Of a stretch of 64,000 nt of DNA, positions 9,227 to 59,980 are shown in pieces (within the stretch, counting starts at the first letter, position 1; each line of letters starts with the position of its first letter). Position numbers and translations under genes: made by a program. Origin of the DNA: Dysosmobacter sp. Marseille-Q4140 (lineage in GTDB: Bacteria > Bacillota > Clostridia > Oscillospirales > Oscillospiraceae); contig CP073694.1 of assembly GCA_018228705.1 (NCBI GenBank), forward strand, positions 1,054,001 through 1,118,000, written 5' to 3'. The notes under the pieces are model-generated. The model was not told the DNA's origin, searched no databases, and saw only the letters and a program-made list of their open reading frames with translations.

Positions 9227-9235
9227 ATCTTTATG

Positions 9236-17608: not shown

Positions 17609-17656
17609 AAAAAGAACTGGATGCCGCCCTTTAATGGGTGGCATCCAGTTCCTTTC
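17609..17656. terminator. Bidirectional terminator between AraC and the DNA-binding gene
   Basis: A 17-bp, nearly perfect stem (17614-17630 with 17635-17651), with AAAAAAG on the left and CCTTT on the right, between two convergent genes. Confidence 0.88.
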
Positions 17657-18098
17657 AATCTTCCATTCCCGATTGCCTGTTATGAATATCTATTTTATAG
17701 CCTGCACCCACCACCGTCTTGATGTATCCCGGATGCCTGGGGTCCTCCTCCAGTTTTCTTCTCAGCCGCCAGATGGTATTCTCCACGGAGTTTGTCCCGC
17801 GTAGATATTCCTCGCCCCAAGCGGCCTCATAGAGCTGCGCTTTGGAGAACACCTGCCCTGGTGAACTGGCCATGCAGTAGAGCATGGCATACTCCCCATG
17901 ATTGAGTTCCACTTCCCTGTCCGCCATGAGCACCCGGCGGTGCTTATGATTGAGCTCCAGTTCCCCGATGCGCAGCACGGAGGTCGCAGGGGCAGCAACA
18001 TCGACTACCTCTGCCCTTTTACCCTTCAGCGCGTCCATGACGGCCTTGAACACGCTGCCGTCCGGATCCCTCGCCCGAATGACAATAATCTCCTCCAA
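17655..18098 (-). CDS. Receiver-less OmpR/PhoB-type DNA-binding protein
   Basis: About 147 residues: an N-terminal 45-residue segment (EEIIVIRARDPDG) that is far too short for a response-regulator receiver, then a full winged-helix effector domain with NHGEYAMLYCMA, SVENTIWRLRRKLEEDP and the wing KTVVGAGYKIDI. I prefer TTG at 18098, eight bases after GGGGAGG, matching the GTG of its paralogue; an upstream GTG at 18107 lies directly against that site. It is the last gene of the LanFEG/lipoprotein/glycosyltransferase operon. Without a phosphorylation site it must be controlled some other way, for example by level or by partner binding. Confidence 0.8.
   Translation of the reverse strand: MEEIIVIRARDPDGSVFKAVMDALKGKRAEVVDVAAPATSVLRIGELELNHKHRRVLMADREVELNHGEYAMLYCMASSPGQVFSKAQLYEAAWGEEYLRGTNSVENTIWRLRRKLEEDPRHPGYIKTVVGAGYKIDIHNRQSGMED
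17803..17858. repeat. Direct repeat, copy 2 (56 bp identical)
   Basis: Identical to 9394-9449 and part of the intact DNA-binding gene; see that entry for the spacing. Confidence 0.9.
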
Positions 18099-18132
18099 GC
18101 TGCTCACCTCCCCGGGATCTTCTGCGGCATGA

Positions 18133-18837
18133 TCAGTTTTGCAGAATTGCCGCCGCCTCTTCCTCGCCGAGATACCCGTATTTCACCATCTGTTGGAGAA
18201 CATACTGCTGCCGCTGCGCAGCCAGATCTGGGTTCGCCGTCAGCGAGTAGACGGATGGCGCATTGGGGATTCCGGCCAGCAGCGTGGCTTCGTCATCCGT
18301 CATGTCCGCAGGCTCCTTCCCAAAGTAGCCCGCGCTGGCGTCCCGGACACAGTAATAGCCGTCGCCAAAGTAAATGGAGTTGACATACAGCTCCAGGATC
18401 TCGTCTTTTGAGTAGGTCTGCTCCAGCCGAAAGGCCATGAAAACCTCCGCAGCCTTACGGATAAAACTCCGCTCCTGGGTAAAATACAGGTTCTTGGCAA
18501 GCTGCTGGGTGATGGTGCTGCCGCCTTCCCGCAGGCTCCAGGACTTGATGTTGTTCCAGGCAGCTCTGGCGATGGCGATGATGTCGATGCCGCAATGCTG
18601 TTCAAAGCGGTGGTCCTCCACTGCCACGACCGCATCAAGATAGATCTCCGGCAGGTCTGCAAGCGGCGTGTAGCTGGGATCTGCCTGCACCTCTGCAACC
18701 TTGTCCTCCAAGCTCTGCTCCTTGAGTGCGTCACGATACATCAGATAGCCCAGAACAGCCACCACACTGCCGCACAAAATCCCGGCGGCTACGATCAGCA
18801 GAATGATCCGCACCAGTAGTTTTTTCAGTATCCGCAT
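18133..18837 (-). CDS. Monofunctional peptidoglycan glycosyltransferase (GT51)
   Basis: A 234-residue membrane-anchored enzyme with one N-terminal transmembrane helix (about 5-35) and a GT51 domain. The motifs are AVVAVEDHRFEQHCGID (catalytic Glu), GGSTITQQLAKN, RKAAEVFMAFRLE and the last ELYVNSIYFGDG. There is no transpeptidase domain, so it polymerises lipid II but cannot cross-link. The ATG at 18837 follows GAGGTG. It lies in an operon behind lantibiotic-immunity ABC genes and a lipoprotein. Using up lipid II, the target of many lantibiotics, or repairing the wall would suit that setting, but this is inference. Confidence 0.9.
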   Translation of the reverse strand: MRILKKLLVRIILLIVAAGILCGSVVAVLGYLMYRDALKEQSLEDKVAEVQADPSYTPLADLPEIYLDAVVAVEDHRFEQHCGIDIIAIARAAWNNIKSWSLREGGSTITQQLAKNLYFTQERSFIRKAAEVFMAFRLEQTYSKDEILELYVNSIYFGDGYYCVRDASAGYFGKEPADMTDDEATLLAGIPNAPSVYSLTANPDLAAQRQQYVLQQMVKYGYLGEEEAAAILQN

Positions 18838-18852
18838 GACGCACCTCACAGT

Positions 18853-19467
18853 TTACTCGATTTGAATGGACACGCTCCCGGTCACGCCCTCGCCCCAGAC
18901 ACCGAGATAGACGCTTCCACCGCCCACCTCGATGGTGCCGGAGTAATCCCCGCTCTCGGACAGCAGGAGCACCGGCTCCTCCGAGCCGGAGCACAGGAAG
19001 ATGGCAGCCTCCCCCTCTTCGACGGCAAGGGAGCAAGTGACCTCTACCGTATCCCCGGCCTCCCGGTCCAGCGTGGTACCGCCAAAGAGCAGTTCCGTAC
19101 CGGAGAAGTCCTCATAGTCAGCCGCATAGGTGCCGGTGTAGTCGTCCTCGCCCCGGACACGCTCCCCCTGGAGGGAGCGGTCCGGCGTCAGCGCCCAGGA
19201 GCCGGCGGTATCCATCAGCGAGCTGTAGGCGTCCAGAATGGCGTCCTTCACTGAGTCATCCGTCGCGTCGGCCGCGGCACCGAGGGCTGCGTCTGTCATA
19301 TCCGCCAGAGCGCCGGCGACCTGATCCGTTCCCTCCGCCAAGCCATTGAGTACCGCATCCGTCCCATCCGCCAGTGATTGCATCATGCCGGAACAGCCGG
19401 ACAGCAGCAGGACGCAGAACAGGCCGCAGGTCAGGAGCGGTGTCCATCGCTTTCGGTTTTCTTTCAT
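18853..19467 (-). CDS. Lipoprotein, LanI-like by context
   Basis: A 204-residue protein with a type II signal peptide and lipobox LLSGC at about residue 25. Next comes an Ala/Asp/Thr-rich helical stretch (about 30-85) with repeated ADGTDAVLNGLAEGTD-like units, then a beta-rich C-terminal half ending in VYLGVWGEGVTGSVSIQIE. The start overlaps the stop of the ABC permease (ATGA). Lantibiotic producers often have a lipoprotein (LanI) beside LanFEG that binds the peptide outside the cell. I see no sequence match to a known LanI, so this is a positional guess. Confidence 0.75.
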   Translation of the reverse strand: MKENRKRWTPLLTCGLFCVLLLSGCSGMMQSLADGTDAVLNGLAEGTDQVAGALADMTDAALGAAADATDDSVKDAILDAYSSLMDTAGSWALTPDRSLQGERVRGEDDYTGTYAADYEDFSGTELLFGGTTLDREAGDTVEVTCSLAVEEGEAAIFLCSGSEEPVLLLSESGDYSGTIEVGGGSVYLGVWGEGVTGSVSIQIE

Positions 19468-20273
19468 CGTGTTTTCCTCCTTGCCTGCCGGCGTCCACCG
19501 GCCTTTTTCTTTTTCGTACTCCCGGCCTTGCTGCTGGGTCTGGAGAAGGCCAAGATCACAGCCGTCAAAACGATGACCGCCGTCATGCCCAGGAGGGCCA
19601 GCGGGATGCTGGGTGCCTCGGTGGCACCGTTGTACTCCTGCATATCAAAGCCGGCCAGCACCAGCGCCGCGGAGAAGGGGTAAGCGGAGAGCAGGAGCCC
19701 GCTCTTAAAGAACAAAATGCAGTATCCCAGGAAAAAGGTCAGGATGGAGCCGCCCAGATAGGCGCCCCGCATCTGCCCGAAAATCAAAATCATGGGCATA
19801 CAGACCAGGAAGGTGGTCAGCGCCGCGGCCACCACCTGTCCACCCTGCTGGAGGAGCACCCCGGGCGTCAGTCCCGGGAGGCCCGCCAGCATCCCGGTGA
19901 GCACCGTCACGGCCACGCTGTAAAGGCCAAACAGCAGGGACAGCAGGCCGGTGACCGCCAGCTTGCCCCCCAGGAGTTTGGGATAGGACACCGGGACGGT
20001 GAGCAGGTTCTTCATGGTGTCATGGGTATTCTCCCGGTCGATCAGCCACCCGCCGATCATCACCAGGGAGATGGGGAGAAACACCTGAGTATTGCCCCAT
20101 ACCACATTGGCGAACAGGTGGAGCATATCATAGTTTGGGTCCCGAATCTCCGGGTTCACGATCAGCTGGCTGCCGTACTGCACCACCGGACAGAGGGCCA
20201 GAGCCACAATGCCCACCAGCAGGATCTGGCACCGCCGCAGCTTCCACCACTCTGTTTGGATCATCTTCCACAT
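19464..20273 (-). CDS. LanFEG-type ABC permease (LanG/MutG-like), operon 1
   Basis: A 269-residue ABC-2 type permease. The typical start MWKMIQTEWWKLRR leads into six hydrophobic segments, with the DRENTHDTMKNLLTVPVSY motif after helix 2 that marks lantibiotic-immunity permeases. The tail is very basic (KKKKAGGRRQARRKTR). The ATG at 20273 follows GAGGAGG. With the adjacent permease and ATPase it should form a pump that removes membrane-bound antimicrobial peptide from the cell surface. Confidence 0.85.
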   Translation of the reverse strand: MWKMIQTEWWKLRRCQILLVGIVALALCPVVQYGSQLIVNPEIRDPNYDMLHLFANVVWGNTQVFLPISLVMIGGWLIDRENTHDTMKNLLTVPVSYPKLLGGKLAVTGLLSLLFGLYSVAVTVLTGMLAGLPGLTPGVLLQQGGQVVAAALTTFLVCMPMILIFGQMRGAYLGGSILTFFLGYCILFFKSGLLLSAYPFSAALVLAGFDMQEYNGATEAPSIPLALLGMTAVIVLTAVILAFSRPSSKAGSTKKKKAGGRRQARRKTR

Positions 20274-20286
20274 ACTCAACACCTCC

Positions 20287-21099
20287 TCAAACGCCCTGGC
20301 GCTTATAGACCAGCGCAATTAAGGCCAGAAACACCGCGGCCTCCGCTCCAGTCACCAGAAACGCCTGGGCGGTGGTGACGAAATAGGGGCTGACTCGCTC
20401 CAAAAGTCCCAGCATCTCGGCACCGGCATTAGAAAAGTCGAGATACTGGAAGTACCACCGGAAGGTCAGCGGCCCGGGCAGCAGCGTCCCCAGGTTCAGG
20501 CCGAAGGGCTGGGTGATAAAGAGGTCGTTCAGGCCGAAGATGTAGTTGACAGAGGTGTAGAAGAAGGTGATGATGACGGAGACGATATAGCTCCGGTTCA
20601 GCAGCACCACCAGCAGGATGCAGGGCAATGCCCCGGCCCACATCATGATCCCCTGGCCGACGCCCACAAAAAAGAGCCGCCAGAAGCCCACGGGCTCCCA
20701 CCCGGCGGCCAGCACGATCAGCAGGATCACCAGGCCGCCCACCGCCATGAAAGCGATGGCAAAAAGAAACAGCAGGGCCATCTTTGCCATGGCCAAGGTC
20801 GGCTTTCTCACCGGCACCGTCATCAGGTTCTTCAGCGTGTCGTTGTCCTGTTCCTCAAAAAGCAGGTTGGAGGCCAGCACCACCAGGGCCGGCATGAGCA
20901 GCAGATAGGCGCTCATCTGGAACAGGGTGGACATCATGCCATCCACCGCCTCGGCCCCGCTGGTAAACTCCTGGAAGTCCGGCAGGAACAGGGCGCACCC
21001 CAGGGGGATCAGGGCGGACACGGCAGCAGCAGCGAAGAACAACGGCTTGCGCCGCAGCTTGGCAAACTCACACCACAGGAGTTTAAGCAATGCCCTCAC
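20287..21099 (-). CDS. LanFEG-type ABC permease (LanE/MutE-like), operon 1
   Basis: A 270-residue ABC-2 permease. I took the GTG at 21099, which overlaps the ATPase gene end and has AGGGG upstream, giving the usual LLKLLWCEFAKLRRKPLFF start. The motif EEQDNDTLKNLMTVPVRKP is shared with its partner. Six transmembrane segments are apparent. It is translationally linked to the ATPase gene before it. Confidence 0.85.
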   Translation of the reverse strand: MRALLKLLWCEFAKLRRKPLFFAAAAVSALIPLGCALFLPDFQEFTSGAEAVDGMMSTLFQMSAYLLLMPALVVLASNLLFEEQDNDTLKNLMTVPVRKPTLAMAKMALLFLFAIAFMAVGGLVILLIVLAAGWEPVGFWRLFFVGVGQGIMMWAGALPCILLVVLLNRSYIVSVIITFFYTSVNYIFGLNDLFITQPFGLNLGTLLPGPLTFRWYFQYLDFSNAGAEMLGLLERVSPYFVTTAQAFLVTGAEAAVFLALIALVYKRQGV

Positions 21100-22006
21100 C
21101 CCCTGTGATGCGCTTGAAGTAGTCCTCAAGGGTGTCCTCGTAGAGATGGGCGTCGGACACCACCAGCCCCGCCTCCACGAACCGCCGCACCGCCGCGCCG
21201 GTGTCCAGGCGGAGATCCCGGACGGTCAGTTCCTGCCCATTCTCCACAGCTACATCCCGCACGCCCATCTCCTGCTGGAGCAGCTGGGCGGCCACCGGTG
21301 CGTTGGACACGGTGAACCGGAGGACCTTCCCGTTCTTCTGCTCCAGCTCCGCCAGGCTCTCCTCTTCCAGGAGGACGCCGTGGTCGATGATCCCGATGTC
21401 ATCTGCCAGCAGGGCGATCTCGGAGAGGATATGGCTGGAGAGCAGGATGGTCTTGCCCCGTTCGTCGCACAGCGCCCGGATGAAGTCCCGCACCTCGGCA
21501 ATGCCGATGGGGTCCAGGCCGTTGATGGGCTCGTCCAGGATCAGCAGCTCCGGGTCGTGCATCACCGCCAGGGCGATGGCCAGCCGCTGTTTCATGCCCA
21601 GGGAGTACTGGGCGTAGCGTTTCTTGTCCCGGTAGGGCAGGTTCACCAGCTCCAGCGCCCCTTTGATATAGTTGGGACTTTTGAGGCCCCGGAGCCGGGC
21701 GAAGATCTGCAAATTCTCCGTCCCGGTCAGGTTGGGGTAAAACCCGGGGGACTCGATGAGACTGCCGATGCGGGGCAGGACGCGCTTTTCGTTCCCCTTC
21801 AGCGACCGGCCGAAGATGGTCACCGTGCCGGATGTGGGGACGGTCAGCCCTAAGAGCATCTTCATGGTGGTGGTCTTGCCCGCCCCATTGCGCCCCAGGA
21901 GGCCGTAGATACGTCCCTTCTGTACATGGAGATCCAGACTGGAGACGCTGACCTGGTCCCCGTAGCGTTTGGTTAGGCCCTTGGTTTCAATGATACAGTC
22001 GCTCAT
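21083..22006 (-). CDS. LanFEG-type ABC ATPase (LanF/MutF-like), operon 1
   Basis: A 307-residue ATPase with Walker A GRNGAGKTT at 38-46, signature YSLGMKQRLAIA, Walker B LLILDEPINGLD and H-loop LSSHILSE. The C-terminal 90 residues form the accessory domain usual in the LanF/BcrA group. The ATG at 22006 follows AGGAGG. It is the first gene of a leftward operon that runs on through both permeases, the lipoprotein, the glycosyltransferase and the receiver-less regulator. Its promoter faces the cognate-looking two-component genes. Confidence 0.88.
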   Translation of the reverse strand: MSDCIIETKGLTKRYGDQVSVSSLDLHVQKGRIYGLLGRNGAGKTTTMKMLLGLTVPTSGTVTIFGRSLKGNEKRVLPRIGSLIESPGFYPNLTGTENLQIFARLRGLKSPNYIKGALELVNLPYRDKKRYAQYSLGMKQRLAIALAVMHDPELLILDEPINGLDPIGIAEVRDFIRALCDERGKTILLSSHILSEIALLADDIGIIDHGVLLEEESLAELEQKNGKVLRFTVSNAPVAAQLLQQEMGVRDVAVENGQELTVRDLRLDTGAAVRRFVEAGLVVSDAHLYEDTLEDYFKRITGGEGIA

Positions 22007-22134: not shown

Positions 22135-22158
22135 ATGGGCAAAGGAAGGGGGTGTCCC

Positions 22159-22854
22159 ATGATGGAGCATAAAATCTTATTGGTAGACGATGACCGGGAC
22201 CTTTTGGCGATGCTGTGTTCCATCTTCCGGCGGGCAGGCTACACCGATCTCGTGACCGCCTCCTCCGGACAAGAGGCTCTCCAGATCTGGCGTGAGCAGC
22301 AGCCGGCGCTGATCGTCCTGGATGTGATGATGCCGGGGATGGACGGCTTTGCGGTCCTGCGGGAGATCCGCCGCACCAGCCGCGTGCCCGTGCTGATGCT
22401 TACCGCCCGGGGCGAGGCGGAGGACCGCATCGAGGGGCTGGAGACCGGGGCGGACGACTACCTTCCCAAGCCCTTCCTGCCCAGGGAGCTGCTGCTCCGG
22501 GTGGGGGCCATCCTCCACCGGACTTACCCGGAGCCCAACCGGAAGGTGGAACTGGCAGCCTCCACGGTGGATTTGGAGAAAGCCGAAGTATGGAAGGACG
22601 GCGAACAGACGCCCTTAACGGCAAAGGAATTGCAGCTGTTCGAGAAACTCTATGAAAATGCCGGAAGGATCGTCACCACCGGCATCCTGTGCGAGACGAT
22701 CTGTGGGGAGTTCTGGCAGGGCTACGAGAGCACCCTCTCGACCCATATCCGCCACCTGCGGGAGAAGATCGAGGCTAATCCCTCCAAGCCGGTCTCTCTG
22801 GTGACGGCCAAGGGGCTGGGATACCGGCTCAATCTGAAGGGGGCGAAGTCGTGA
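22159..22854 (+). CDS. OmpR-family response regulator, LanFEG unit 1
   Basis: A 231-residue response regulator. Receiver: acidic pocket VDDD near residues 9-12, phospho-acceptor Asp55 in VLDVMMPGMDG, Lys104 in LPKPF. The C-terminal winged helix ends LVTAKGLGYRLN. The ATG at 22159 follows GGAAGGGGG. The stop overlaps the kinase start (GTGA). It probably activates the divergent LanFEG operon through the phased repeats between them. Confidence 0.92.
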   Translation: MMEHKILLVDDDRDLLAMLCSIFRRAGYTDLVTASSGQEALQIWREQQPALIVLDVMMPGMDGFAVLREIRRTSRVPVLMLTARGEAEDRIEGLETGADDYLPKPFLPRELLLRVGAILHRTYPEPNRKVELAASTVDLEKAEVWKDGEQTPLTAKELQLFEKLYENAGRIVTTGILCETICGEFWQGYESTLSTHIRHLREKIEANPSKPVSLVTAKGLGYRLNLKGAKS

Positions 22855-24209
22855 ACCCGGTACAGCGGTTTTTCCGGCGCTACATTTTCTCCACCATTGG
22901 CATTTTGACGCTGTTCTTTGCGGTCAACATTGCTCTGGTTTTGGGCGTCATGGTCGCTGGATACATGAGCGGGACAGACAACGGGCTGTCTGTCCGGGAG
23001 GTGTCCGGCCATGTGACGCAGCAGGGCGGCGTCTGGACGGCAGACGATACGGCGCCGGCCCTGCTGCGGGAGCATGACGCCTGGGCCATGCTTTTAGATG
23101 AACGCGGCACTGTGGTATGGGAGCAGGGCCTACCGGAGGAGCTGCCCCGATCCTATACCAGCGCCCAGGTGGCCTCCTTCAGCCGCTGGTATCTTCAGGA
23201 CTATCCGGTGAAGGTGTGGAGCCGGGAGGACGGCGCCTTGATGGTGGTGGGATTTGCACCGGGCACCCTAGTGAAATACTACTTTTCCATGGAGCTTTCC
23301 TCCCTGATGATGTTCCTGATGGGGGCCATCGCGGTCTTTGTGTGCAACCTGCTGCTGATGGTCTTCCTGACGCTGCGGAACACCCGCCGGGTGGAGAAGG
23401 CCATGTCCCCCATCCTGCGGGGCATCCAGGATTTGAGCCGGGGCAGTTACCAGCCCCTGGACGAGCACGGAGAACTGGCGGAGATCAACGCGGGGCTCAA
23501 CCGAGCCGGGGATTACCTGATGCGCAAGGATAACACCCGGGCGGAGTGGATTCGCGGCGTGTCCCACGACATCCGCACCCCCCTCTCCATGGTGCTGGGC
23601 TACGCCAGCGAACTGGAGGATGACGACACTCTCCCCACCGAGGCCCGGCACCATGCCGGGATGATCCGGCAGCAGGGGGAGCGGCTGAAATCTCTGGTGG
23701 AGGATCTGAACCTGACCACCAAGTTGGAATACGCCCTCCAGCCCATCCGCCGGGAGGCAGTAGATCTGGTGGAGATCGGGCGGCAAGCGGTGAGCGAGGT
23801 GCTCAACGACGGTCTGCCGGAGCGGTATGAAATCACATTTTCCGAGACGCATCCGGGCCGCGCTGCCAGAATAGAGGGTGACGCCGCCCTTCTCCGGCGG
23901 ATGCTGGACAACCTGATCCGCAACAGCATCGTCCATAATCCCCAGGGCTGCCATATCTCCGTCACGATAGGCGCGGAAGATGGGCGATGCACCTGCACAG
24001 TGACAGATGATGGCGTTGGAATGGATGCCGCCCGACTGGAGGCGCTGAACCGGGAAGCGGATGTCTCCAGCACCCAGGGCGGTGAGCACGGCTTGGGCCT
24101 CAAGCTGGTGCGGCAGATCGTGAAGGCCCACGGGGGAACGGTGCGGTTCTGGCAGGCTGTGCCTCATGGACTGGAGATTTGCATTTCTATCCCCACAAGG
24201 AATGTCTGA
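22851..24209 (+). CDS. Sensor histidine kinase, LanFEG unit 1
   Basis: A 452-residue kinase with two transmembrane helices (about 10-35 and 150-175) framing an extracellular domain of about 115 residues. A HAMP-like linker leads to His239 in GVSHDIRTPLSM, N-box LDNLIRNSIVHN, G1 VTDDGVGMD and G2 GLGLKLV. The start is a GTG overlapping the response-regulator stop. The extracellular segment shares the ASFSRWYLQDYPV region with the second kinase of this window. It likely senses a cell-wall-active peptide or a resulting envelope signal. Confidence 0.9.
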   Translation: MNPVQRFFRRYIFSTIGILTLFFAVNIALVLGVMVAGYMSGTDNGLSVREVSGHVTQQGGVWTADDTAPALLREHDAWAMLLDERGTVVWEQGLPEELPRSYTSAQVASFSRWYLQDYPVKVWSREDGALMVVGFAPGTLVKYYFSMELSSLMMFLMGAIAVFVCNLLLMVFLTLRNTRRVEKAMSPILRGIQDLSRGSYQPLDEHGELAEINAGLNRAGDYLMRKDNTRAEWIRGVSHDIRTPLSMVLGYASELEDDDTLPTEARHHAGMIRQQGERLKSLVEDLNLTTKLEYALQPIRREAVDLVEIGRQAVSEVLNDGLPERYEITFSETHPGRAARIEGDAALLRRMLDNLIRNSIVHNPQGCHISVTIGAEDGRCTCTVTDDGVGMDAARLEALNREADVSSTQGGEHGLGLKLVRQIVKAHGGTVRFWQAVPHGLEICISIPTRNV

Positions 24210-24271: not shown

Positions 24272-25000
24272 TTACTCCGCCGCCACATCGTGCCGCCGGA
24301 GATGGTGGACGGCCAGGAGGGTGAACACCGCCGTGTAGCCAAAAGCGGAGAGCAGGAAGGGGGCGAAGTCCAGCTCCATATTCGGATTGTTGGCCCGCAT
24401 CCCGATGCACAGCAGGGAGTACGGGAAGGCGTACCCGAACCCCTGGGCCGTGACAATCAGCCCCGCAATGCCTCCCACCAGGCCAAAGGCCACCGGCAGG
24501 GCGAAGGCACGAATGATCAGGCTGAAATAGAGTTGCACCGCGCACACCGACACGCCGCCGATGGCCCCGCACGCCAGCCACCCGAGCAGCTCCGGCGGGA
24601 TGGGGCCGGTGAGCCCCACGATCTTCCCGCTGATAATAAACAGCGCCCCGATCCAGGCCTGGGAGAGCAGGGACATGACCGCCGCCCAGATCAGCTTGGC
24701 AAAGCACAGGGCCCCCACCGGCACCGGCGCGGTGAGAAAACTGTTCCAGTTGTGGTCCGTGTGCTCCAGCCGCCACTGCCAGGCGCAGAACACCCCCAGC
24801 AGGGCCGGCAGGAAGAACATGGAGGAGAACAGGGTGTGCTGGCTCCACAGGCTGTACCACTCGCTCCGCAGCAGCCCCAGATTCCCCAGATAGTTCATGG
24901 TGCCCAGGATGGCCGGGAAAATGGGCAGCACCACAAAGGCCAGCCACACCGGCGACCGGCGGAACTTGATGAGCTCCGCCCTCAGACAACGCAGCAGCAT
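24272..25000 (-). CDS. LanFEG-type ABC permease (LanG/MutG-like), operon 2
   Basis: A 242-residue ABC-2 permease starting MLLRCLRAELIKFRRSPVWL, with six hydrophobic segments and the conserved EHTDHNWNSFLTAPVPVGA loop of lantibiotic-immunity permeases. The ATG has AAGGAGG 8 bases before. It is the last gene of operon 2. Unlike operon 1 there is no lipoprotein or glycosyltransferase behind it. Confidence 0.88.
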   Translation of the reverse strand: MLLRCLRAELIKFRRSPVWLAFVVLPIFPAILGTMNYLGNLGLLRSEWYSLWSQHTLFSSMFFLPALLGVFCAWQWRLEHTDHNWNSFLTAPVPVGALCFAKLIWAAVMSLLSQAWIGALFIISGKIVGLTGPIPPELLGWLACGAIGGVSVCAVQLYFSLIIRAFALPVAFGLVGGIAGLIVTAQGFGYAFPYSLLCIGMRANNPNMELDFAPFLLSAFGYTAVFTLLAVHHLRRHDVAAE

Positions 25001-25003
25001 CCC

Positions 25004-25753
25004 TCACACCTCCTTCCGCACGAACAGCGCCCGTCCCACCAGCAGGAACAGCGCCGCCCACAGGCACAGCAACACCAGGTCGGTGGGCACCGGCCACTCC
25101 CAGTAGAACCAGGTGAACCGGGTGTCCGGATTCCAGTTCATCCCCACCAGGGACAAAAGGCCGTAGTAGCCCCAGGGGACGCACCGGGTCAGGGCCGGCG
25201 GGAACAGCAGGGACAAGATCCCGAGAAAGCTCCCGGAGATCCCACACACCAGGGCCACCGCCTGATTGGCAAAGCGCAGGGACAAGCCCTGCTGCAGGGC
25301 GTAGACCATCATAGACACCGCCCAGGAGATCAGGGTGAAGATCCCGAACCTCCCCCAAGGGACCTCCCCCGGGAACTGCCACAGGATGCCCACCCCCATG
25401 AAGAGCGCCCACCGGACCATGAGCAGGGCGGTCAGCACCAGGGCGCCCCAGGCCAGCTTGGCAGCATAGAGAGCTCCCGGCGCCGCCATAGTCTCCAGCA
25501 GTTTCAGGGTGGTCCCCTTGTGCTCCAGCTCGCAGTTTCGGCTGGCAATGGTGGCCACGCTGATGGGCATGATGATGGCGTCCACCATAGCCAGATTGTA
25601 AAGCAACAGCATCCAGCCCTGGCGGAGATCCTCGGCGTCCTGGCGGAGGAAGGTGGAGACGATCCACAGCAACTCCGCCGCCAATACAGCGGCGCACACC
25701 AGCAGGATCTTCCGCCGGCGGCACTTGAAAAACTCCAGCTTCAGCAGTTTCAC
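25004..25753 (-). CDS. LanFEG-type ABC permease (LanE/MutE-like), operon 2
   Basis: A 249-residue ABC-2 permease with the start MKLLKLEFFKCRRRKILLV and the loop NCELEHKGTTLKLLETMAAP, homologous to the loops of the other LanE/G subunits. Six membrane segments. The GTG start overlaps the ATPase stop (GTGA) and the stop lies three bases before the LanG start, so the three proteins are made in fixed ratio. Confidence 0.88.
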   Translation of the reverse strand: MKLLKLEFFKCRRRKILLVCAAVLAAELLWIVSTFLRQDAEDLRQGWMLLLYNLAMVDAIIMPISVATIASRNCELEHKGTTLKLLETMAAPGALYAAKLAWGALVLTALLMVRWALFMGVGILWQFPGEVPWGRFGIFTLISWAVSMMVYALQQGLSLRFANQAVALVCGISGSFLGILSLLFPPALTRCVPWGYYGLLSLVGMNWNPDTRFTWFYWEWPVPTDLVLLCLWAALFLLVGRALFVRKEV

Positions 25754-26661
25754 AGGCTCGCCGCCTTTCCCGTCAGCTCCAGGAAAATGTCCTCCAAACT
25801 CTTCTGCCGCTCCTCTAAGCGGATGACGCCCAGATTGCGCGCCCCCAGCAGGCGGGTGAGCTGGGCGGCGATCTCGTCAGAGAGGATGGGGAGGATGAGG
25901 TATCCCCCTTCCTCCTGGCAGGGCACGGACTTCTCCTGGAGGATGGCCCGGGCCACGGCGTTGTTGGTGGTGCGCAGGGCCAGGTGGTGGCGGCTGCGGC
26001 CGTGGAGGGCCTCCAGGGTGTCCTGGAACACCAGCTCCCCCTCCCGGATGATGGCCACATGGTCCGCCATCTGGTCGATCTCACTGAGCAGGTGGCTGGA
26101 TACCACCACCGTCATGCCGAACCGCTCGGGCAGGGAGCAGATCAGCTCCCGCATCTCCTGGATGCCCGCCGGGTCCAGGCCGTTGGTGGGCTCGTCCAGG
26201 ATCAGCAGCTTGGGATAGCCCAGCAGGGCCGCCGCCAGGCCCAGCCGCTGTTTCATGCCCAGGGAGTAGTGGGCCACCCTCTTGCCTCGCTGACCATCCA
26301 GCCGGACGATCTGCAGCACCTCCCGGATATTTTTCTCCGGCACCCCCCGGAGGGTCTGGACGATGCGCAGATTCTCCTCCCCGGTAAGGTGGCCGTAGTA
26401 GCTGGGGCTCTCGATGAGGCTCCCCACCTGCCGGAGCACGGCCAGGCGGCTCCCGCCATCCATCTTCTTCCCCAGCACCCGGATGTCCCCCGCCGTGGGG
26501 CGCACCAGGCCCAGAATCATTTTCAGGGTGGTGGACTTCCCCGCCCCGTTGGGGCCGAGAAAGCCGTAGACGCTGCCCTCGGGCACATCCAGATCCAGGT
26601 GAGCCACCCGCAGGGCGTTTCCATACTGCTTGCACAGGTCGTGTGTCTCAATGATGTTCAT
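25750..26661 (-). CDS. LanFEG-type ABC ATPase (LanF/MutF-like), operon 2
   Basis: A 303-residue ATPase with Walker A GPNGAGKST at 36-44, signature YSLGMKQRLGLA, Walker B LLILDEPTNGLDPAG and the HLLSE H-loop, plus the LanF C-terminal accessory domain ending LEDIFLELTGKAASL. The ATG follows an AGGAGG. The protein is clearly paralogous to the ATPase of operon 1. It probably drives removal of a lantibiotic-type peptide from the membrane. Confidence 0.9.
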   Translation of the reverse strand: MNIIETHDLCKQYGNALRVAHLDLDVPEGSVYGFLGPNGAGKSTTLKMILGLVRPTAGDIRVLGKKMDGGSRLAVLRQVGSLIESPSYYGHLTGEENLRIVQTLRGVPEKNIREVLQIVRLDGQRGKRVAHYSLGMKQRLGLAAALLGYPKLLILDEPTNGLDPAGIQEMRELICSLPERFGMTVVVSSHLLSEIDQMADHVAIIREGELVFQDTLEALHGRSRHHLALRTTNNAVARAILQEKSVPCQEEGGYLILPILSDEIAAQLTRLLGARNLGVIRLEERQKSLEDIFLELTGKAASL

Positions 26662-26811: not shown

Positions 26812-27498
26812 ATGGCCTATCGCATTTTGATCGTGGACGACGAGGCCGCCCTGCAGAACATGGTGAAGGAGATCCTAACCCAGGTCGGCTATGAGACAAC
26901 CTCCGCCCTCACCTGCGCCCAGGCGCTGGAACAGTTCCGGGCCGCGGCGCCGGACGCGGTGCTGCTGGACGTGAACCTGCCGGACGGGGACGGCTTCTCC
27001 CTGTTAGGGAAACTCCGGGAAAACCGGGACGTGCCGGTACTGTTCCTCTCCGCCCGGGACGAGGACGCCGACCGGCTGCAGGGCTTGGGCCTGGGTGCGG
27101 ACGACTACATCACCAAGCCTTTTCTCCCTCAGGAGCTGCTGCTCCGCCTGCACGCGGTGCTCCGGCGGGTGTACCGGGAGGAGGTCCAGACCGCCCGGCT
27201 GGGGGACGCGGAGATCGACTGGGGCAAGAGCGCTGTCCGCCGAAACGGGGCGGAGACCGCTCTCACCGCCAAGGAGTTCATTCTGTTGAAGAAGCTGTGG
27301 GATGCCCGGGGCAACATCGTCACCATCGACGCCCTGTGCGCCGCATTGTGGGACGGGCCTCTGGTGGGCTATGAGAACACGCTGATGGTCCACATCCGCC
27401 GCCTGCGGGAGAAGATCGAGGCGGACCCCTCCCACCCAAACTATCTGCTGACGGTGCGGGGGCTGGGCTACCGCCTCAGCCGGGAGGGGACGAAATGA
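26812..27498 (+). CDS. OmpR-family response regulator, LanFEG unit 2
   Basis: A 228-residue regulator with VDDE near residues 8-11, phospho-acceptor Asp53 in LLDVNLPDGDG, Lys102 in ITKPF, and a winged helix ending LLTVRGLGYRLS. The ATG at 26812 has AAAGGAGG eight bases before; a longer frame start at 26761 overlaps the -10 and is not used. The stop overlaps the kinase start (ATGA). Confidence 0.92.
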   Translation: MAYRILIVDDEAALQNMVKEILTQVGYETTSALTCAQALEQFRAAAPDAVLLDVNLPDGDGFSLLGKLRENRDVPVLFLSARDEDADRLQGLGLGADDYITKPFLPQELLLRLHAVLRRVYREEVQTARLGDAEIDWGKSAVRRNGAETALTAKEFILLKKLWDARGNIVTIDALCAALWDGPLVGYENTLMVHIRRLREKIEADPSHPNYLLTVRGLGYRLSREGTK

Positions 27499-28712
27499 GT
27501 TTACGGAGCATTTTCAAGGGGGCCATGCTGGTGACCGCCTCGGCGGCGCTCATCGCCGTCATCACCATAGCGGGCATCCTGGCCCTCGCCTTCTACTACT
27601 CTGACGGCGGCCGGAGTTGGAGCGTCTCCATCACCCGTGTCTCCGACGCCCTGACCTATGACGGGACGGAGTATGACTTTTCCGGGGATGCGCTGCTGGG
27701 GGATGACCGCTGGGCCATCCTGATCGGAGAGGACGGACAGGTGATCTGGTCCCTCCGTAAACCCGCCGACGTGCCGGAGCACTATACCCTCACGGACGTG
27801 GCCTCCTTCACCCGGTGGTATCTGGGCGACTACCCGGTGCAATGCCGCATCCGGGACGACGGCCTGCTGGTGGTGGGCTCGCCCAAGGGAAGCATGTGGA
27901 AGCACGACATCTCCATGCAGTCCCGTCTGCTCCACGACGCGCCCCTGTGGATCGGCGGCATCTTTCTGCTGGCCCTCGGGTGCGTGCTGCTCCTGGCCTA
28001 CTTCGCGGTGCGCCGGTGGTTCCGGCAGGCCCAGCGGGTGCGGGACGCCGCCCGGTCCGACTGGATCAACGGCGTGTCCCACGATATCCGCACCCCCCTC
28101 TCCATGGTCATGGGCTACGCCGCCCAGATGGAGGGGGCGGCGGATCTGCCGCCGGAGCGCCGAAAGCAGGCGGGGATCATCCGCGCCCAGAGTCAGGAGA
28201 TCCGGGACCTGGTGAACGACTTGAACCTCACCATGCGGCTGGACTGCGCCATGCAGGCCCTGCGGAAGGAGCCCCTCCAGGTGGAGGCGTTTCTCCGCCA
28301 GACCGCCGCCGACTTCCTCAACGGCGGCATGGGCGAGGGCTTCGACTTGGAGATGGATCTGCCGTCGGAGCCCCTGCCCCAAATCGAGGCAGACCCCTTC
28401 CTGTTGCGCCGGGCGGTGAACAACCTGCTCACCAACTGCGTGCGGCACAACGCGCCGGGCGGCTCCATCCGTCTGGGGGCCAGAGCCGAGGGGAAATCGG
28501 TGGTCCTCTTTGTGGCGGGCGGCGCGGCGGCAGGCATTCCGTCGGTGGCCGATCCCACCCGTCAGTTGGAGGCCGACGGCTCCGCCGCCCACGGCACGGG
28601 CCTCAAGCTGGTGCGACAGATCGCCGAGGCCCACGGCGGGACGGTGCAATTTGAGCAGGGGACATCCCACGGACTGAAGGTTTTCATTTCCCTGCCCGCA
28701 AGCAATGCCTGA
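27495..28712 (+). CDS. Sensor histidine kinase, LanFEG unit 2, odd ATP-binding site
   Basis: A 405-residue kinase with two transmembrane helices (about 10-35, 150-175) around an extracellular domain, then His196 in GVSHDIRTPLSM, N-box VNNLLTNCVRHN and G2 HGTGLKLV. The G1 box, which should read D-x-G-x-G (TDDGVGM in the first kinase), is here VAGGAAAGI: the Asp that contacts adenine is replaced by Ala. The residues around it are otherwise aligned. The kinase may therefore be weak, work mainly as a phosphatase, or bind ATP differently. Paralogue of the kinase at 22851. Confidence 0.9.
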   Translation: MSLRSIFKGAMLVTASAALIAVITIAGILALAFYYSDGGRSWSVSITRVSDALTYDGTEYDFSGDALLGDDRWAILIGEDGQVIWSLRKPADVPEHYTLTDVASFTRWYLGDYPVQCRIRDDGLLVVGSPKGSMWKHDISMQSRLLHDAPLWIGGIFLLALGCVLLLAYFAVRRWFRQAQRVRDAARSDWINGVSHDIRTPLSMVMGYAAQMEGAADLPPERRKQAGIIRAQSQEIRDLVNDLNLTMRLDCAMQALRKEPLQVEAFLRQTAADFLNGGMGEGFDLEMDLPSEPLPQIEADPFLLRRAVNNLLTNCVRHNAPGGSIRLGARAEGKSVVLFVAGGAAAGIPSVADPTRQLEADGSAAHGTGLKLVRQIAEAHGGTVQFEQGTSHGLKVFISLPASNA

Positions 28713-28748
28713 AAGAAGGCGGGCGGTTTTTGGACCGTCCGCCTTCTT
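28713..28748 (+). terminator. Terminator after kinase 2
   Basis: A 15-bp stem with one G-T pair (28713-28727 and 28734-28748) and a TTTTGG loop, starting at the stop codon. The remaining 100 bp to the GntR gene hold no ORF; AAGGAAAGTATCA at about 28834 recurs upstream of the traX-like gene. Confidence 0.75.
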
Positions 28749-28852
28749 GCTTACTCGCGGCCGTGATACAGTGGACTATAAGGTACTGAAATAAGTCTCT
28801 GCCATCGGAGAAATCTTACCAGCGAAATATAAGGAAAGTATCAGGGCGGGTA

Positions 28853-29197: not shown

Positions 29198-29208
29198 GCA
29201 GTGTCTCC

Positions 29209-29430: not shown

Positions 29431-29432
29431 CG

Positions 29433-31344: not shown

Positions 31345-31349
31345 ACCGC

Positions 31350-31669: not shown

Positions 31670-31683
31670 ACCTCGCATGGAGG

Positions 31684-54789: not shown

Positions 54790-56781
54790 TTAAAAATCCG
54801 CCGGCGGCCGGGAGCTCTCGTAGAGCGTCTTGGGCCGTTTGGCGGACTTTGCAGGGAATTCCGAGGGCTGACCGCCAGATGACGGTGACTTGGGGACGGG
54901 CGCCTTCGGCTTTGCCTGTGGCGGTTTCGCTTTAACGGGCGGCTTTGCGGCGGCGGCAGGCGCCGGTCCGGGCGGTTTGTCCATGTCGGGTTCAGCAGGC
55001 ATGGACTGAGCCGGTGGCTCCAGCGGCTGAGCCGGCGCCGGGTCGGTTTGGTAGCGCTGGATACTGGTGCGCTCGCACTCTTTGGCATAGGGATGCTCGG
55101 TGAAGTCGAACTTCTTGGCCCGGAGCACCTTCTGGCCGCGCAGGATGATCAGCAGCTCATCGTTGGGGAGCCGGAGCACCTCGTCCGGGGTCAGCACCCG
55201 CCGCCGGCCGATCCCCTCCGTGTAGCGGTACTGGGGGATGACCTGCGCCAGGGCGAGACTCTGCCGTGTGGTCATGGTGGAGTTGACCTCCACCGTCATG
55301 TCCCCGCTGCGGGCGCTGAAGTACTCCGCAGTCACGTCATCCGTGGCGCCCAGCATGATCTGGGTGTCGGCGTTGCCCAGCAGCTCCGCCCACAGGTTAT
55401 TGGGGTAGCGGTTTTGCAGCTGGGGAAGGCTTTGCGAGCACATGATGACCTGGAGCGCTCTCGACCTGATGGTAGACAGCCGCCTGCCGAAATCCTTGAT
55501 GGTGCCGATGTTGTTCATCTCGTCCAGGATGATGTTGACCGGCACCTTGCAGCGCTGTTCCGGGGTGCTGTCGGCGTAGCGCACGAGCTTGATGAACAGG
55601 AATGCGAAGAACAGGGCCGACAGGAACTCCAGGGAGGAGTTCTGATCGTCCAGGATGATGTAATAGGCGCACTTGCTCCAGCCCGGTTCAGACAGGTCGA
55701 TGTCGGAGCTGCGGGTGATCCGCCGCACGGCCTCGCTCTGGAGCACCTGGAGTCTGGTGCCAAGGCCCAGGACGATGCCTGCGCGCACGGTGTCGCTGGC
55801 CTGGCTGAACAGGCTGTACGGCCCCTTGGCCGGATGGCCGATGGGCAGCCGGTCAAAGAGCATGGTGAGTTCCTTCTCCGTGTGCTGGGTGAGCATCTGA
55901 TAGACGGCGGCCAGGTTCCGCTCCTCCGGCGTGCGGGTGCTGTCCAGGTCCACATAAAGGATCAGGCTCTTGAGCAGGTTGCTCTCGCCGTTGTCCCAGA
56001 AGTGGTCGCCCTTCTCATCGCCCTTCGTGTTGGAGATGATCACGTCGGTGAGGATCTGGGCCATGAGTGTGTCGCCGCCCAGGTCAAACATGCAGTTCCA
56101 GGAGTCGCTGTACTCCGGCTGCAGAAGGTTATAGACCCGCACCTTATAGCCGTGCTTTTTGAACAGCTCCGCCGTGTCGGCGAACATCTCCGACTTTGGA
56201 TCCGCGACCACTACCGACTCGCCGCGCCGGATGCTCTGGAACAGGGCCGGCCGGATGACGCCCCTGGACTTCATGGTGCCGCTGGCGCCGAAGACGGCGA
56301 TGTGCTTATTGAGCCGGGTGTCCTCCGGCAGGCAGATGACGGAGCCGCGCTCCGTCTTGCCCAGGATGATCCCCTTTGCACGCTCCGGACCGGCCACCTC
56401 CAGCACGGAGCGCATCTCCTTCTCGCTCATCCAGCCGGATGTGCCGTAGGTGCCCCGCTTGCTGCGGGTGAAGTTGCGGGGGTCGTAGTCGTTGCTCCCA
56501 AATCGGTTTTGGAGCCGTACAAATACGAACAGGCCGCCTGCCAGCACCGCCGTGAATAAGGTGCATTTCAGGCCGCTCCCCGTCATGGCGCTGCGCCAGC
56601 ACACAAGGGGCGAGAAATAGATGGCGCCCATGGTGGCCTTGCCGGTCATGCCGCCGTCGGCCAGCCACTTCTGGTAGCCAATGGTGAGCTGGCTGATGAG
56701 GCCGCCCAGATAGAGCAGCGCCGCCACACCCAGGATCACGGCGAGGACGATTCCCGCTGCGCGCACAGAATTACTTTTCAT
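54790..56781 (-). CDS. virD4: VirD4/TraG-type coupling protein
   Basis: A 663-residue T4SS coupling ATPase. Two or three N-terminal membrane helices (about 5-25, 45-65, 75-95); Walker A AVFGASGTMKSR near 165, where the usual GKS/T is GTMKS, and VVVADPKSEMFADT; Walker B PVNIILDEMNNIG near 425; C-terminal ICRG-QKVLRAKKF-type motifs and a Pro/Lys-rich tail. The ATG at 56781 follows AAGGGAG. It delivers the relaxase-DNA complex to the channel. Placed at the end of the transfer operon instead of at its head. Confidence 0.92.
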   Translation of the reverse strand: MKSNSVRAAGIVLAVILGVAALLYLGGLISQLTIGYQKWLADGGMTGKATMGAIYFSPLVCWRSAMTGSGLKCTLFTAVLAGGLFVFVRLQNRFGSNDYDPRNFTRSKRGTYGTSGWMSEKEMRSVLEVAGPERAKGIILGKTERGSVICLPEDTRLNKHIAVFGASGTMKSRGVIRPALFQSIRRGESVVVADPKSEMFADTAELFKKHGYKVRVYNLLQPEYSDSWNCMFDLGGDTLMAQILTDVIISNTKGDEKGDHFWDNGESNLLKSLILYVDLDSTRTPEERNLAAVYQMLTQHTEKELTMLFDRLPIGHPAKGPYSLFSQASDTVRAGIVLGLGTRLQVLQSEAVRRITRSSDIDLSEPGWSKCAYYIILDDQNSSLEFLSALFFAFLFIKLVRYADSTPEQRCKVPVNIILDEMNNIGTIKDFGRRLSTIRSRALQVIMCSQSLPQLQNRYPNNLWAELLGNADTQIMLGATDDVTAEYFSARSGDMTVEVNSTMTTRQSLALAQVIPQYRYTEGIGRRRVLTPDEVLRLPNDELLIILRGQKVLRAKKFDFTEHPYAKECERTSIQRYQTDPAPAQPLEPPAQSMPAEPDMDKPPGPAPAAAAKPPVKAKPPQAKPKAPVPKSPSSGGQPSEFPAKSAKRPKTLYESSRPPADF

Positions 56782-56785
56782 CGCA

Positions 56786-57946
56786 TCAACTCCCTTCGTC
56801 TGCCCCCTCCCCTGCTCTGAGTCCGAGGGCATCTTCCAGATCCGGCAAGCCGATCTCCCGCAGCTGTGCCCGGCCGCCTATGTACCTGTCCACAAACTGA
56901 CTCTGCCAGGGGAAGCACAGAATCTCATACGGCGCGCCGCTGTGCTCCAGCGCCTGCCGCACCCGCACCAGGCGGGCGATGTCGCCATCCAGGTGGGAGA
57001 GAATCAGGGTGTTCCCATCCTGTGCGTCATACTCCATCACACCGGGTAACCTCACACGCATCCGCTCCGGGAATACCGCGGCAAGCACCTGCTCATGCCA
57101 GTCTGAGAGCGTCAGGAGGCGTAGGAGGCGGGAGCCCTGCTCGGTCATGGGGATAAAATGCACATGGGGATAGATCCGGTCAAAGCGCAGCTCCATGCGC
57201 CGGCTCTTGTCGGACTCCAGTAGGGTCTGCAGCGCCAGGTCCATATGCTCCCCCAGCAGGATGGCATGGTCTGCCCGGGCGGGGCCCGCATTCATGCGGG
57301 CCAGCTCCTCCAGGTGCCGGGCGGTCTTGAACTCGCCCATCCCGCTCCACTTCATCACGGCGTCCCTTGTGTTGTAGACGGCGTAACAGTACCCCGGGCT
57401 GAAGATGGCGCCGGTGAGGCGGGTGAAGATGGTCTTGTTCATCTCGGTATTGTCCAGCTGCTTGACCGATTTTGCCGGGTAAAAGCAGGCATATGCCGGC
57501 ACGACCTGCCGGATCGCCTGCTTCTGCAGGGGCGGCAGCAGGAAGGGGCGTGTTTCCACTCCGGCCCCCATACAGATTGCCACCGATTCCGCGACCCGAT
57601 GATTTCGCTCCACATGGCTTACACTCCCGGAAAAGCGGTGACCGCCGGTGGCGGCAAGATACCAGCTGAGGGCTGCCGGGTGCAGGGCCTGCAGGAGCGA
57701 TAGGGCGCTCTTATACAGCCGGATCGTCCGCCTGTTCCCCCTCCCGCTGGTGGTGAGCATTTTACAGGCGCCGAGGTCTGCCCCGGCGGGGGTACGGAAG
57801 TGCTGCACCACCTCCAGCCTTCTGACCAGCTCCTCCAGCGTCCGGACACTACCCAGCAGGTGAAGGGAGCGGTAGGGGTACTCCCCGCAGATGGCCAGCA
57901 GGAGCAGCAGGCGCCAGACGTGGCTGCCGGGCCGGAGCGTGATCAT
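56786..57946 (-). CDS. Conjugative-element protein, possibly replication-relaxation-like
   Basis: A 386-residue protein with a possible N-terminal winged helix (LLLLLAICGEYPYRSLHLLG and following LEELVRRLEVVQHF), a central variable part and a conserved C-terminal region (HFIPMTEQGSRLLRLLTLSD, FVDRYIGGRAQLREIGLPDL). It starts on ATGA overlap with the small gene before and ends four bases before the VirD4 start. I suspect the replication-relaxation family but am not sure. Confidence 0.6.
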   Translation of the reverse strand: MITLRPGSHVWRLLLLLAICGEYPYRSLHLLGSVRTLEELVRRLEVVQHFRTPAGADLGACKMLTTSGRGNRRTIRLYKSALSLLQALHPAALSWYLAATGGHRFSGSVSHVERNHRVAESVAICMGAGVETRPFLLPPLQKQAIRQVVPAYACFYPAKSVKQLDNTEMNKTIFTRLTGAIFSPGYCYAVYNTRDAVMKWSGMGEFKTARHLEELARMNAGPARADHAILLGEHMDLALQTLLESDKSRRMELRFDRIYPHVHFIPMTEQGSRLLRLLTLSDWHEQVLAAVFPERMRVRLPGVMEYDAQDGNTLILSHLDGDIARLVRVRQALEHSGAPYEILCFPWQSQFVDRYIGGRAQLREIGLPDLEDALGLRAGEGADEGS

Positions 57947-58137
57947 TCGGACTGCCCGGGGTCATCGGGATTTAAGGCATGGCTGTTGCTCTCTTTGCCG
58001 CAAATCGGCTCCCGGTCGCGCTTGGGAACCCCTGTCTTTTCGGGGATCTTCCGCCGTTTCGGATTTACGTGTGCCTGCGGCCTGGAAACGGGCCTAAAAT
58101 CCCGTATCTTTTCAGGCCCATATTTCGCTCGTTTCAT
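57943..58137 (-). CDS. Small basic protein (64 aa), coupled
   Basis: Begins MKRAKYGPEKIRDFRPVSR, very basic, no membrane segment. Its AAGGAGG site lies inside the 3' end of the previous gene, which it overlaps by 26 bp, and its stop overlaps the start of the next gene (ATGA). The placement supports a real, coupled gene. Function unknown. Confidence 0.65.
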   Translation of the reverse strand: MKRAKYGPEKIRDFRPVSRPQAHVNPKRRKIPEKTGVPKRDREPICGKESNSHALNPDDPGQSE

Positions 58138-58801
58138 ACAGGGTATCCTCCTTCAGATCGTCCGCCTGCTCCGCCGCCAGCCACTCGGGAAACCGGCTGG
58201 CGGGCACCACATACACCTCTGTACAGTCCACCTCCCCGGCTGTGCTGCAGTAGTAATGGGCGCACCGCCGGGGGGCGTCATCCGGCAGCAGGTAGAGCGT
58301 GATGATATCGGTCACCATGTTGACCTCAATGTTGTCATGGTCGCGGTAGGCCCGCTCCGGCCTGCCGCGCTGATACACATGCCGGTAAGCCAGCACGCAG
58401 CTGCGGTAGCACGCCGGCGGCTTGCCGTCGAAGTAGCGGCGCAGGGCGGGATAGAGATACTGCTGGATATAGATAGGCGATCCCGTTCCCTTCTTTGGAA
58501 GGAGCGCGGGGATCTTCAGCAGAAACCATCCCCGCCTGGCGTAGCCCATCTCAATGGGCACGGTGTCCAGCAGCATCTGCTCCGTCAATTCCGCTGCCTT
58601 CGGGTGCCCGGTATAGGCCGGAAGCACCCGTGCGAGCAGGGCCAGCTTCTCCACCTCCGCGGAGAAGGCAAAGGCAGAACCGAACGCGCCCGCCATATCC
58701 TCCCGTTCCAGCAGGCGCCGGGTGCGGGCAAGCTCCACAGCGGCGCGCTCCATCCGGCGCTCGGCCCCGGCCAAAGCCTGCCCAAAGTCAGACTGCGCCA
58801 T
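58112..58801 (-). CDS. Conjugative-element protein (tentatively DUF6100-like)
   Basis: A 229-residue protein: N-terminal long helices (LAGAERRMERAAVELARTRR), then a mixed region with MGYARRGWFLLKIPALLPKKGTG and RHVYQRGRPERAYRDHDN. The ATG at 58801 overlaps the previous gene end by 14 bp. Found in similar elements beside the next protein upstream; family name from memory. No catalytic motif seen. Confidence 0.6.
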   Translation of the reverse strand: MAQSDFGQALAGAERRMERAAVELARTRRLLEREDMAGAFGSAFAFSAEVEKLALLARVLPAYTGHPKAAELTEQMLLDTVPIEMGYARRGWFLLKIPALLPKKGTGSPIYIQQYLYPALRRYFDGKPPACYRSCVLAYRHVYQRGRPERAYRDHDNIEVNMVTDIITLYLLPDDAPRRCAHYYCSTAGEVDCTEVYVVPASRFPEWLAAEQADDLKEDTLYETSEIWA

Positions 58802-59944: not shown

Positions 59945-59980
59945 AGTGCTGCCCTCCTTAACTTGAGAATAATGTGATGT

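Follow-up and report, generated by a model that had tools for sequence, protein, structure and literature searches.

Why should an operon for a transporter of the lantibiotic-protection type also encode an enzyme that polymerizes lipid II, the molecule usually targeted by the peptides against which such pumps act? This question is raised by a locus in a 64,000-nucleotide stretch of the genome of Dysosmobacter sp. Marseille-Q4140 (assembly GCA_018228705.1, contig CP073694.1, positions 1,054,001 to 1,118,000), which as a whole is referred to here as the window. On its minus strand, a row of genes running from 22006 to 17655 encodes a LanFEG-like ATP-binding cassette (ABC) transporter, a lipoprotein, a monofunctional glycosyltransferase of family 51 (GT51), and an OmpR-type winged helix-turn-helix (wHTH) regulator without a receiver domain, and the row is closed by a strong terminator. 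In our comparison with other genomes, whose loci carry numbers with the prefix L, the lipoprotein (usually with a YxeA-family protein) and the GT51 are genetically coupled to two unrelated transporter types, LanFEG and BceAB. The presence of shared accessory genes behind unrelated pump families suggests a working partnership.

The Gene Row in the Window

The row consists of the following features:

21083..22006, minus strand: LanF-like ATPase of the CprA/LanF type (PF00005, 6.9e-30; TIGR03740, 239.8 bits)
20287..21099, minus strand: LanE-like ABC-2 permease (PF12730, 1.6e-37), starting with GTG like its counterpart in the relative L026
19464..20273, minus strand: LanG-like ABC-2 permease (PF12730, 5.1e-33; weak match to TIGR03733 (MutG), 1.1e-5, below the cut-off)
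18853..19467, minus strand: lipoprotein with a lipobox and a predicted helical linker and C-terminal beta-sandwich (lipobox, alignments, structure model, and distribution)
18133..18849, minus strand: monofunctional GT51 peptidoglycan glycosyltransferase (PF00912, 1.6e-62), with an N-terminal membrane anchor as read from the sequence
17655..18107, minus strand: receiver-less OmpR/PhoB-type wHTH regulator of 150 residues (PF00486 (Trans_reg_C), 1.8e-22, residues 64-138)
17609..17656, minus strand: intrinsic terminator ending the row (17-pair hairpin, U tract, -35.9 kcal/mol, z -7.06)

Pfam and NCBIfam scans, together with the coordinates, bear out the six genes that the initial annotation had placed here, in the same place and on the same strand, and the Pfam scan found no receiver domain in the protein encoded at 17655-18107. 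The lipoprotein gene overlaps LanG by 4 bases and is separated by 3 bases from the GT51 gene, which in turn lies 25 bases from the wHTH gene. Given this tight spacing and the terminator, the six genes from LanF to the wHTH regulator are very likely read as a single transcript.

Recurrence Beside LanFEG-Like Transporters

A survey of genomes for neighbouring LanFEG, lipoprotein, and GT51 genes had been set beforehand in the initial annotation, and we ran it as a scan for GT51 in genome contigs, covering the best 80 of 174 relatives. The arrangement was present in 12 of the 80 GT51 loci (L021-L032), in which GT51 is located behind a lipoprotein-family gene and, to the extent covered by the contigs, behind LanE and LanG; the contigs begin inside the lipoprotein gene in L021, inside LanF in L024, and inside LanE in L032. 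The order of the window, LanFEG-lipoprotein-GT51, is found in L021-L024, followed by the wHTH gene in L021-L023, with L024 ending before the position of that gene. In L025-L030 and L032, a YxeA-family gene (PF06486, TIGR01655; scanned for L026) lies between the lipoprotein and the GT51, and L031 takes another form, with YxeA first and a short lipoprotein-like gene. A wHTH gene likewise ends the rows in L021-L023, L032, and L195. These 12 loci, along with the second system described below, show that the genetic link between GT51, lipoprotein, and transporter proposed for the window is real and recurrent. One of the conditions named in the initial annotation for refuting its idea, a GT51 gene that is not retained next to LanFEG in other genomes, therefore did not apply. 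As a side observation, L030 (Gemmiger gallinarum) continues with one gene resembling an excisionase and two resembling integrases, as identified by eye.

A Second System Behind BceAB-Type Transporters

Matches of the lipoprotein profile beside BceB-type permeases revealed a second arrangement in L155 and L156, in the order response regulator, kinase, BceA, BceB, lipoprotein, YxeA, and GT51. The L156 module was confirmed by Pfam and NCBIfam, which identified the FtsX-type permease, ATPase, kinase, regulator, and YxeA (TIGR01655). Between the window and L156, the lipoproteins are 34% identical over 128 residues and the GT51s are 55% identical over 234 aligned columns.

Among the 87 genomes of the genus designated g117, one copy of the lipoprotein gene was found in each of 10. 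Every copy is followed by GT51 on the same strand, with gaps of 117-497 bases and with YxeA in between in nine cases, and BceB lies upstream of all 10 (L156, L175-L183), although truncated where the contig stops in L176 and L179 and split in two in L180 and L183. The GT51 gene is broken or cut in L178, L179, and L181. The 31 YxeA matches in this genus represent 30 genes (one is in two pieces), 17 of which are followed by GT51. BceAB-YxeA-GT51 rows without the lipoprotein are also present (L184-L186, L188, L189), as are BceAB-GT51 rows (L168-L170, L191, which contains a YxeA fragment, and L192). Outside g117, BceAB adjoins GT51 without the trio in L066, L089, L092, and L094.

BceB was present in five of the 78 GT51 loci in which a GT51 was called, and in all five the GT51 is adjacent or one gene off (p 0.0006 when random genes from these loci serve as the comparison); this rule was set after the loci had been seen, and L065, with a hydrogenase gene in between, counts only under it. 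The five BceAB-linked GT51 places in the class sample all belong to genus g117 and are not counted as independent.

The GT51 Enzyme and the Lipoprotein

The GT51 of the window is a protein of 238 amino acids with PF00912 over residues 55-221 and no other Pfam domain, and thus no transpeptidase domain. It aligns with the solved PBP1a (2oqo/3nb6) and with the monofunctional enzymes of Staphylococcus aureus, and it combines the marks of a monofunctional GT51: the domain itself, standing alone, an N-terminal anchor, and the active-site glutamates. Its score against the equivalog TIGR02070 (mono_pep_trsgly), 147.2 bits, is below the curated 182.65, and it is expected to belong to the same activity class without being the equivalog. 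The residues E78 and E153, which we take to be the catalytic pair, are conserved in 12 of 12 LanFEG-linked copies (the window included) and in 17 of 17 BceAB-linked copies; among the other copies, E78 is present in 91 of 91 and E153 in 87 of 91 (alignment-based counts, copies of at least 200 residues). Separately, a monofunctional GT51 is located behind a small membrane protein in L041, L043, L044, L048, and L064, with two further small genes in between in L044; the small protein is presumably akin to undecaprenol/diacylglycerol kinase, another lipid carrier enzyme.

The lipoprotein contains a lipobox (L-S-G-C) at residues 22-25, and its gene overlaps LanG, a position that corresponds to that of the LanI-type lipoproteins (NisI, SpaI). 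Family scans assigned it to no Pfam or NCBIfam family, and a PDB sequence search returned three weak, unrelated matches for the protein and none for its profile. Among the matches listed for its structure model are GOLD domains, spore-appendage pilins, xylanases, and collagen-binding sandwiches. No relatives were found in viral contigs, and plasmid records yielded a single hit, at 50% identity over 64%, on Subdoligranulum variabile OY725878.1, which is labelled as a 247.5 kb circular plasmid.

Across the 391 genomes of the class, the lipoprotein profile identified 16 places in 13 genomes, and the family is located behind both LanFEG and BceAB transporters. It occurs without GT51 in four clean cases, namely L163, L164, and L172, all behind another LanF-type transporter, and L165, in which the frame of the lipoprotein gene is not continuous. 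L166, L167, and L161 were not counted as GT51-less since their sequences stop 115, 534, and 0 bases, respectively, after the lipoprotein. A gene of 95-103 residues also separates the lipoprotein from the last permease in L163 (at 5990), L164 (1854), L166 (5849, membrane protein-like), and L172 (5398).

Origin and Spread of the GT51 Genes

The LanFEG-linked GT51s form nearly one clade, requiring two changes on the GT51 tree when the truncated copies of L037 and L038 are included and one change (support 79) when these are left out, which suggests essentially one recruitment. They are nearest to the GT51s of Blautia (L033, L034), which have no such transporter beside them, and, as far as the sequences indicate, the LanFEG-linked cassettes have spread by transfer. 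In approximately unbiased (AU) tests, a single clade of LanFEG- and BceAB-linked GT51s was rejected (p-AU 0.0035), and a clade of the BceAB-linked GT51s alone was not (p-AU 0.132); these tests used quick trees, with groups named after a first tree had been seen. Since the joint clade is rejected, the LanFEG- and BceAB-linked sets are not one inherited block. Both accessory genes are under purifying selection, with ratios of nonsynonymous to synonymous substitution rates (dN/dS) between the window and L024 of 0.10 for the GT51 and 0.20 for the lipoprotein.

Further observations concern individual loci. The truncated GT51 copies of L037 and L038 (8007-8510; 167 residues) belong to the LanFEG-linked clade, and integrase-like genes were seen by eye beside the copy in L037; LanFEG genes were not found by tblastn in either locus. 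Between the window (18133-19467) and L022, the lipoprotein and GT51 show a dS of 0.01-0.02, compared with 0.14-0.24 for LanF, LanE, and LanG, and this unevenness is a sign of recombination inside the cassette. In L031 (5593-7161), LanE and LanG are far diverged from those of the window (dN 0.74-0.83), whereas LanF and GT51 are close (dN about 0.2), so the permease pair looks to have been swapped.

The Transporter and Its Regulators

The transporter of the row has the composition of the LanFEG/CprABC type, namely a single ATPase (PF00005) and two different ABC-2 permeases (PF12730) in one operon, accompanied by a divergent two-component pair at 22135-24209:

22135..22854, plus strand: response regulator, divergent from the row (PF00072, PF00486)
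22851..24209, plus strand: sensor histidine kinase, divergent (PF00512, PF02518)

The divergent pair is also present in cassettes L022, L023, L026, and L028-L031. The best NCBIfam family of the ATPase is TIGR03740, "lantibiotic protection ABC transporter ATP-binding subunit"; its 239.8 bits fall below the curated cut-off of 309.75, and we therefore use the label LanFEG-like. Lanthipeptide biosynthesis genes elsewhere in the genome would point to a producer self-immunity cluster; LANC_like (PF05147) was found in none of five genomes (G001, which is the nearest, G122, G262, G304, and G445), with a control that matched in one of 14 genomes. A role in anti-phage defence was considered and rejected, because PADLOC gave no match for the wHTH regulator, the GT51, the lipoprotein, or the kinase.

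A Possible Mechanism and Its Alternatives

We tentatively propose that the operon is an inducible, mobile cassette for resistance to peptides directed at lipid II (probably lantibiotics), in which the transporter would free lipid II and the GT51 would polymerize it at once; we regard this proposal as close to evenly balanced, on the doubtful side. Judging from the layout, the divergent kinase and regulator would sense the peptide and switch the operon on, and the LanFEG-like transporter, to go by its family, would remove the peptide from the membrane. The lipoprotein, with its predicted helical stalk and beta-sandwich, may bind the peptide or lipid II beside the transporter, and the membrane-anchored GT51, whose enzyme residues are intact, would polymerize lipid II as it is freed, before the peptide rebinds, so that the target would be both cleared and consumed. 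A more general "free and consume" defence, in which a portable lipoprotein-YxeA-GT51 set would work with either transporter family, the transporter stripping the peptide off lipid II, the lipoprotein (with YxeA) holding the freed site and the polymerase using the lipid II at once, is conceivable, and we are more doubtful of it. Raised pbp2a has reportedly been observed in nisin-resistant Lactococcus lactis, in work by Kramer and colleagues from 2006.

In a model put forward in the available text of Kobras et al. (PMC7038271), transporters of the BceAB type release intermediates of the lipid II cycle from bound peptides, such that the next enzyme (a transglycosylase in the case of lantibiotics) acts before rebinding. 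LanFEG, which has no close evolutionary relationship to BceAB, may follow a similar principle according to the same text. An operon supplying the next lipid II-cycle enzyme with either transporter would fit this model. The VraR and LiaR regulon data described below are in line with it as well.

Several observations weigh against a hand-off from the transporter to the GT51. In 63 of the 80 GT51 loci, neither LanFEG nor BceAB was recognized near the GT51 on the sequence available. Conversely, LanG occurs at 14 places in 13 of the 391 class genomes, of which one (G001) has GT51 and nine have none within 1.3-1.5 kb behind LanG, with the sequence ending too soon to score GT51 in the remaining four (L102, L107, L109, L113). 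In L195, the S. variabile record OY725878.1, a LanFEG set is followed by LanFEG-lipoprotein-wHTH with the lipoprotein and wHTH genes directly joined, and no GT51 was found in the 14.4 kb examined. As GT51 is missing from between these two genes in L195, it looks like an insertion there in the other rows. The GT51 is thus an optional add-on to the LanFEG operon, and the link to LanFEG claimed in the initial annotation holds as a recurrent association, which extends to the lipoprotein (mostly with YxeA) between BceB and GT51, and not as a fixed one. L025 and L027 lack the LanF and the two-component pair that are present in L026, with the rest kept. In addition, the 12 LanFEG cases go back to essentially one recruitment and are therefore not independent.

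Similar caution applies to the BceAB side, where the lipoprotein-YxeA-GT51 trio is known from one genus, g117, and where BceAB and the lipoprotein occur without GT51 in L157-L160. In L155, L168, L169, L178, L187, L189, and L191, the gene calls split the g117 GT51 behind BceAB/YxeA into a piece of about 141-173 residues and another of 58 or 80, which reflects either decay or a frame change. NisI and SpaI are absent among the fold matches listed for the lipoprotein, which excludes nothing. For an S. aureus sgtB mutant, the accessible part of the published account reports no difference for most of the wall-active antibiotics tested, nisin being among those tested, and a rise in oxacillin resistance (PMC6287468). 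A GT51 alone therefore need not protect.

The main rival explanation is general cell-wall repair, in which the GT51 would be an envelope-stress enzyme like MGT/SgtB in the VraSR/LiaR regulons, keeping peptidoglycan synthesis going without any hand-off from the transporter. In S. aureus, mgt is described as a VraR target that is VraR-induced (PMC9380581, available text), and the corresponding part of a study of a bacteriocin-resistant, LiaR-related mutant of Enterococcus faecium gives a 9-fold increase for sgtB, 45-fold for the YxeA gene, and 12-fold for liaR (PMC10269926). The many relatives of the window GT51 without a recognized transporter beside them point in the same direction. However, wall repair has no need for an operon shared with a transporter, twice, and with the same lipoprotein and YxeA partners, and we consider it a serious but rather unlikely explanation.

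Alternatively, the GT51 might stand in for the housekeeping polymerases, being less affected than they are by the peptide or by an inhibitor of the enzyme, as could be expected of a separate GT51 with an intact active site that exists beside housekeeping enzymes (a GT51-domain match was found in 57 of 60 relatives, nearly all in open frames of at least 700 residues). A peptide bound to lipid II, however, would make the substrate inaccessible to all enzymes of this kind, and this explanation is improbable. Slightly less probable still is that the GT51 and lipoprotein are passengers, carried along in a mobile element with no joint function with the transporter. The cassette is on mobile DNA and common to several genera: L025, L026, and L027, which carry the names of three genera, share 99.97-99.99% identity across at least 11.4 kb, which reflects either a transfer in the recent past or contamination within a single series of isolates, all three being "An" isolates. 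The near-single clade of the LanFEG cases and the lack of GT51 in the close relative L195 would also suit passengers, but passengers would not be expected to form this trio again behind the BceAB transporters of a different genus, at 10 of 10 lipoprotein genes, or to be under purifying selection.

Relation to Known Systems

Parts of these arrangements are already known, namely a transporter with a two-component pair and a lipoprotein in the cpr system of Clostridioides difficile, and BceAB with YxeA in Bacillus subtilis and L. lactis. CprABC-CprKR of C. difficile likewise comprises one ATPase, two permeases, a two-component pair, and an adjacent lipoprotein, CD1348; it differs in that no GT51 is reported (neither "glycosyl" nor "penicillin-binding" occurs in the available review text) and in that CD1348 is described there without a known resistance role (PMC5786555). 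NisI-NisFEG of L. lactis, as far as the accessible sources describe it, also pairs a transporter with a peptide-side lipoprotein, although it serves producer self-immunity. B. subtilis YxdJK/YxdLM-YxeA and L. lactis YsaDCB/TCS-G resemble L156 and L175 in combining a BceAB-type module with a YxeA-family gene, whereas "transglycosylase" and "penicillin-binding" are absent from the available text of the paper describing them (PMC7438565). In the VraSR-mgt and LiaR-sgtB-yxeA regulons, a monofunctional GT51 (in E. faecium also YxeA) is similarly raised with envelope-stress systems, according to the accessible portions of the two reports (PMC9380581, PMC10269926); there, the genes are regulon members, whereas here they share an operon with the transporter, on mobile DNA. 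An operon joining GT51 to LanFEG or BceAB, or the trio behind both, was not found in the literature searched, which had most subscription papers outside its reach.

Genomic Surroundings of the Operon

Other features of the window include the following:

24272..26661, minus strand: second LanFEG-like transporter without the added genes, used for comparison (PF12730, PF00005; TIGR03740, 266.5 bits, below 309.75)
26812..28712, plus strand: two-component pair belonging to the second LanFEG, a response regulator and a kinase (PF00072/PF00486, PF00512/PF02518)
54790..62581, minus strand: conjugation genes (coupling protein, 54790-56781, PF02534, 2.8e-55; TraG/VirB4-type ATPase, 59981-62581, PF19044, 2.2e-20)

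The adjacent paralogous LanFEG (26661-24272) lacks the lipoprotein, GT51, and wHTH genes, just as the initial annotation had noted. Two tandem LanFEG sets with nearly the same LanF are also observed in L195 (1686-7890), where only the second has the lipoprotein and wHTH genes. Given the coupling protein and the TraG/VirB4-type ATPase, a conjugative element probably carries the cassette region as cargo; no element ends or integrase were identified within the window.

The segment from 26812 to 41775 contains more two-component and ABC genes, including a BceAB-type FtsX/ATPase pair with a kinase (33834-37963), and can be described as an envelope-stress island. Another wHTH gene without a receiver domain (9231-9689, minus strand) ends a different row, consisting by eye of an ABC exporter and ECF-type genes, and about 360 bases of this wHTH gene match those of L021 and L022 at 83-84% DNA identity. 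Such orphan wHTH genes may be end markers of cargo modules.

Implications

Whether LanFEG and BceAB protect by expulsion of the peptide or by protection of its target is debated, and these operons provide a direct genetic handle on the question, as the GT51 is separable from the transporter. If lipid II is indeed freed and consumed, resistance would consist in removal of the target by use, and not only in removal of the drug. The presence of the cassette on mobile DNA of gut Clostridia bears on the tolerance of gut communities to nisin-like peptides.

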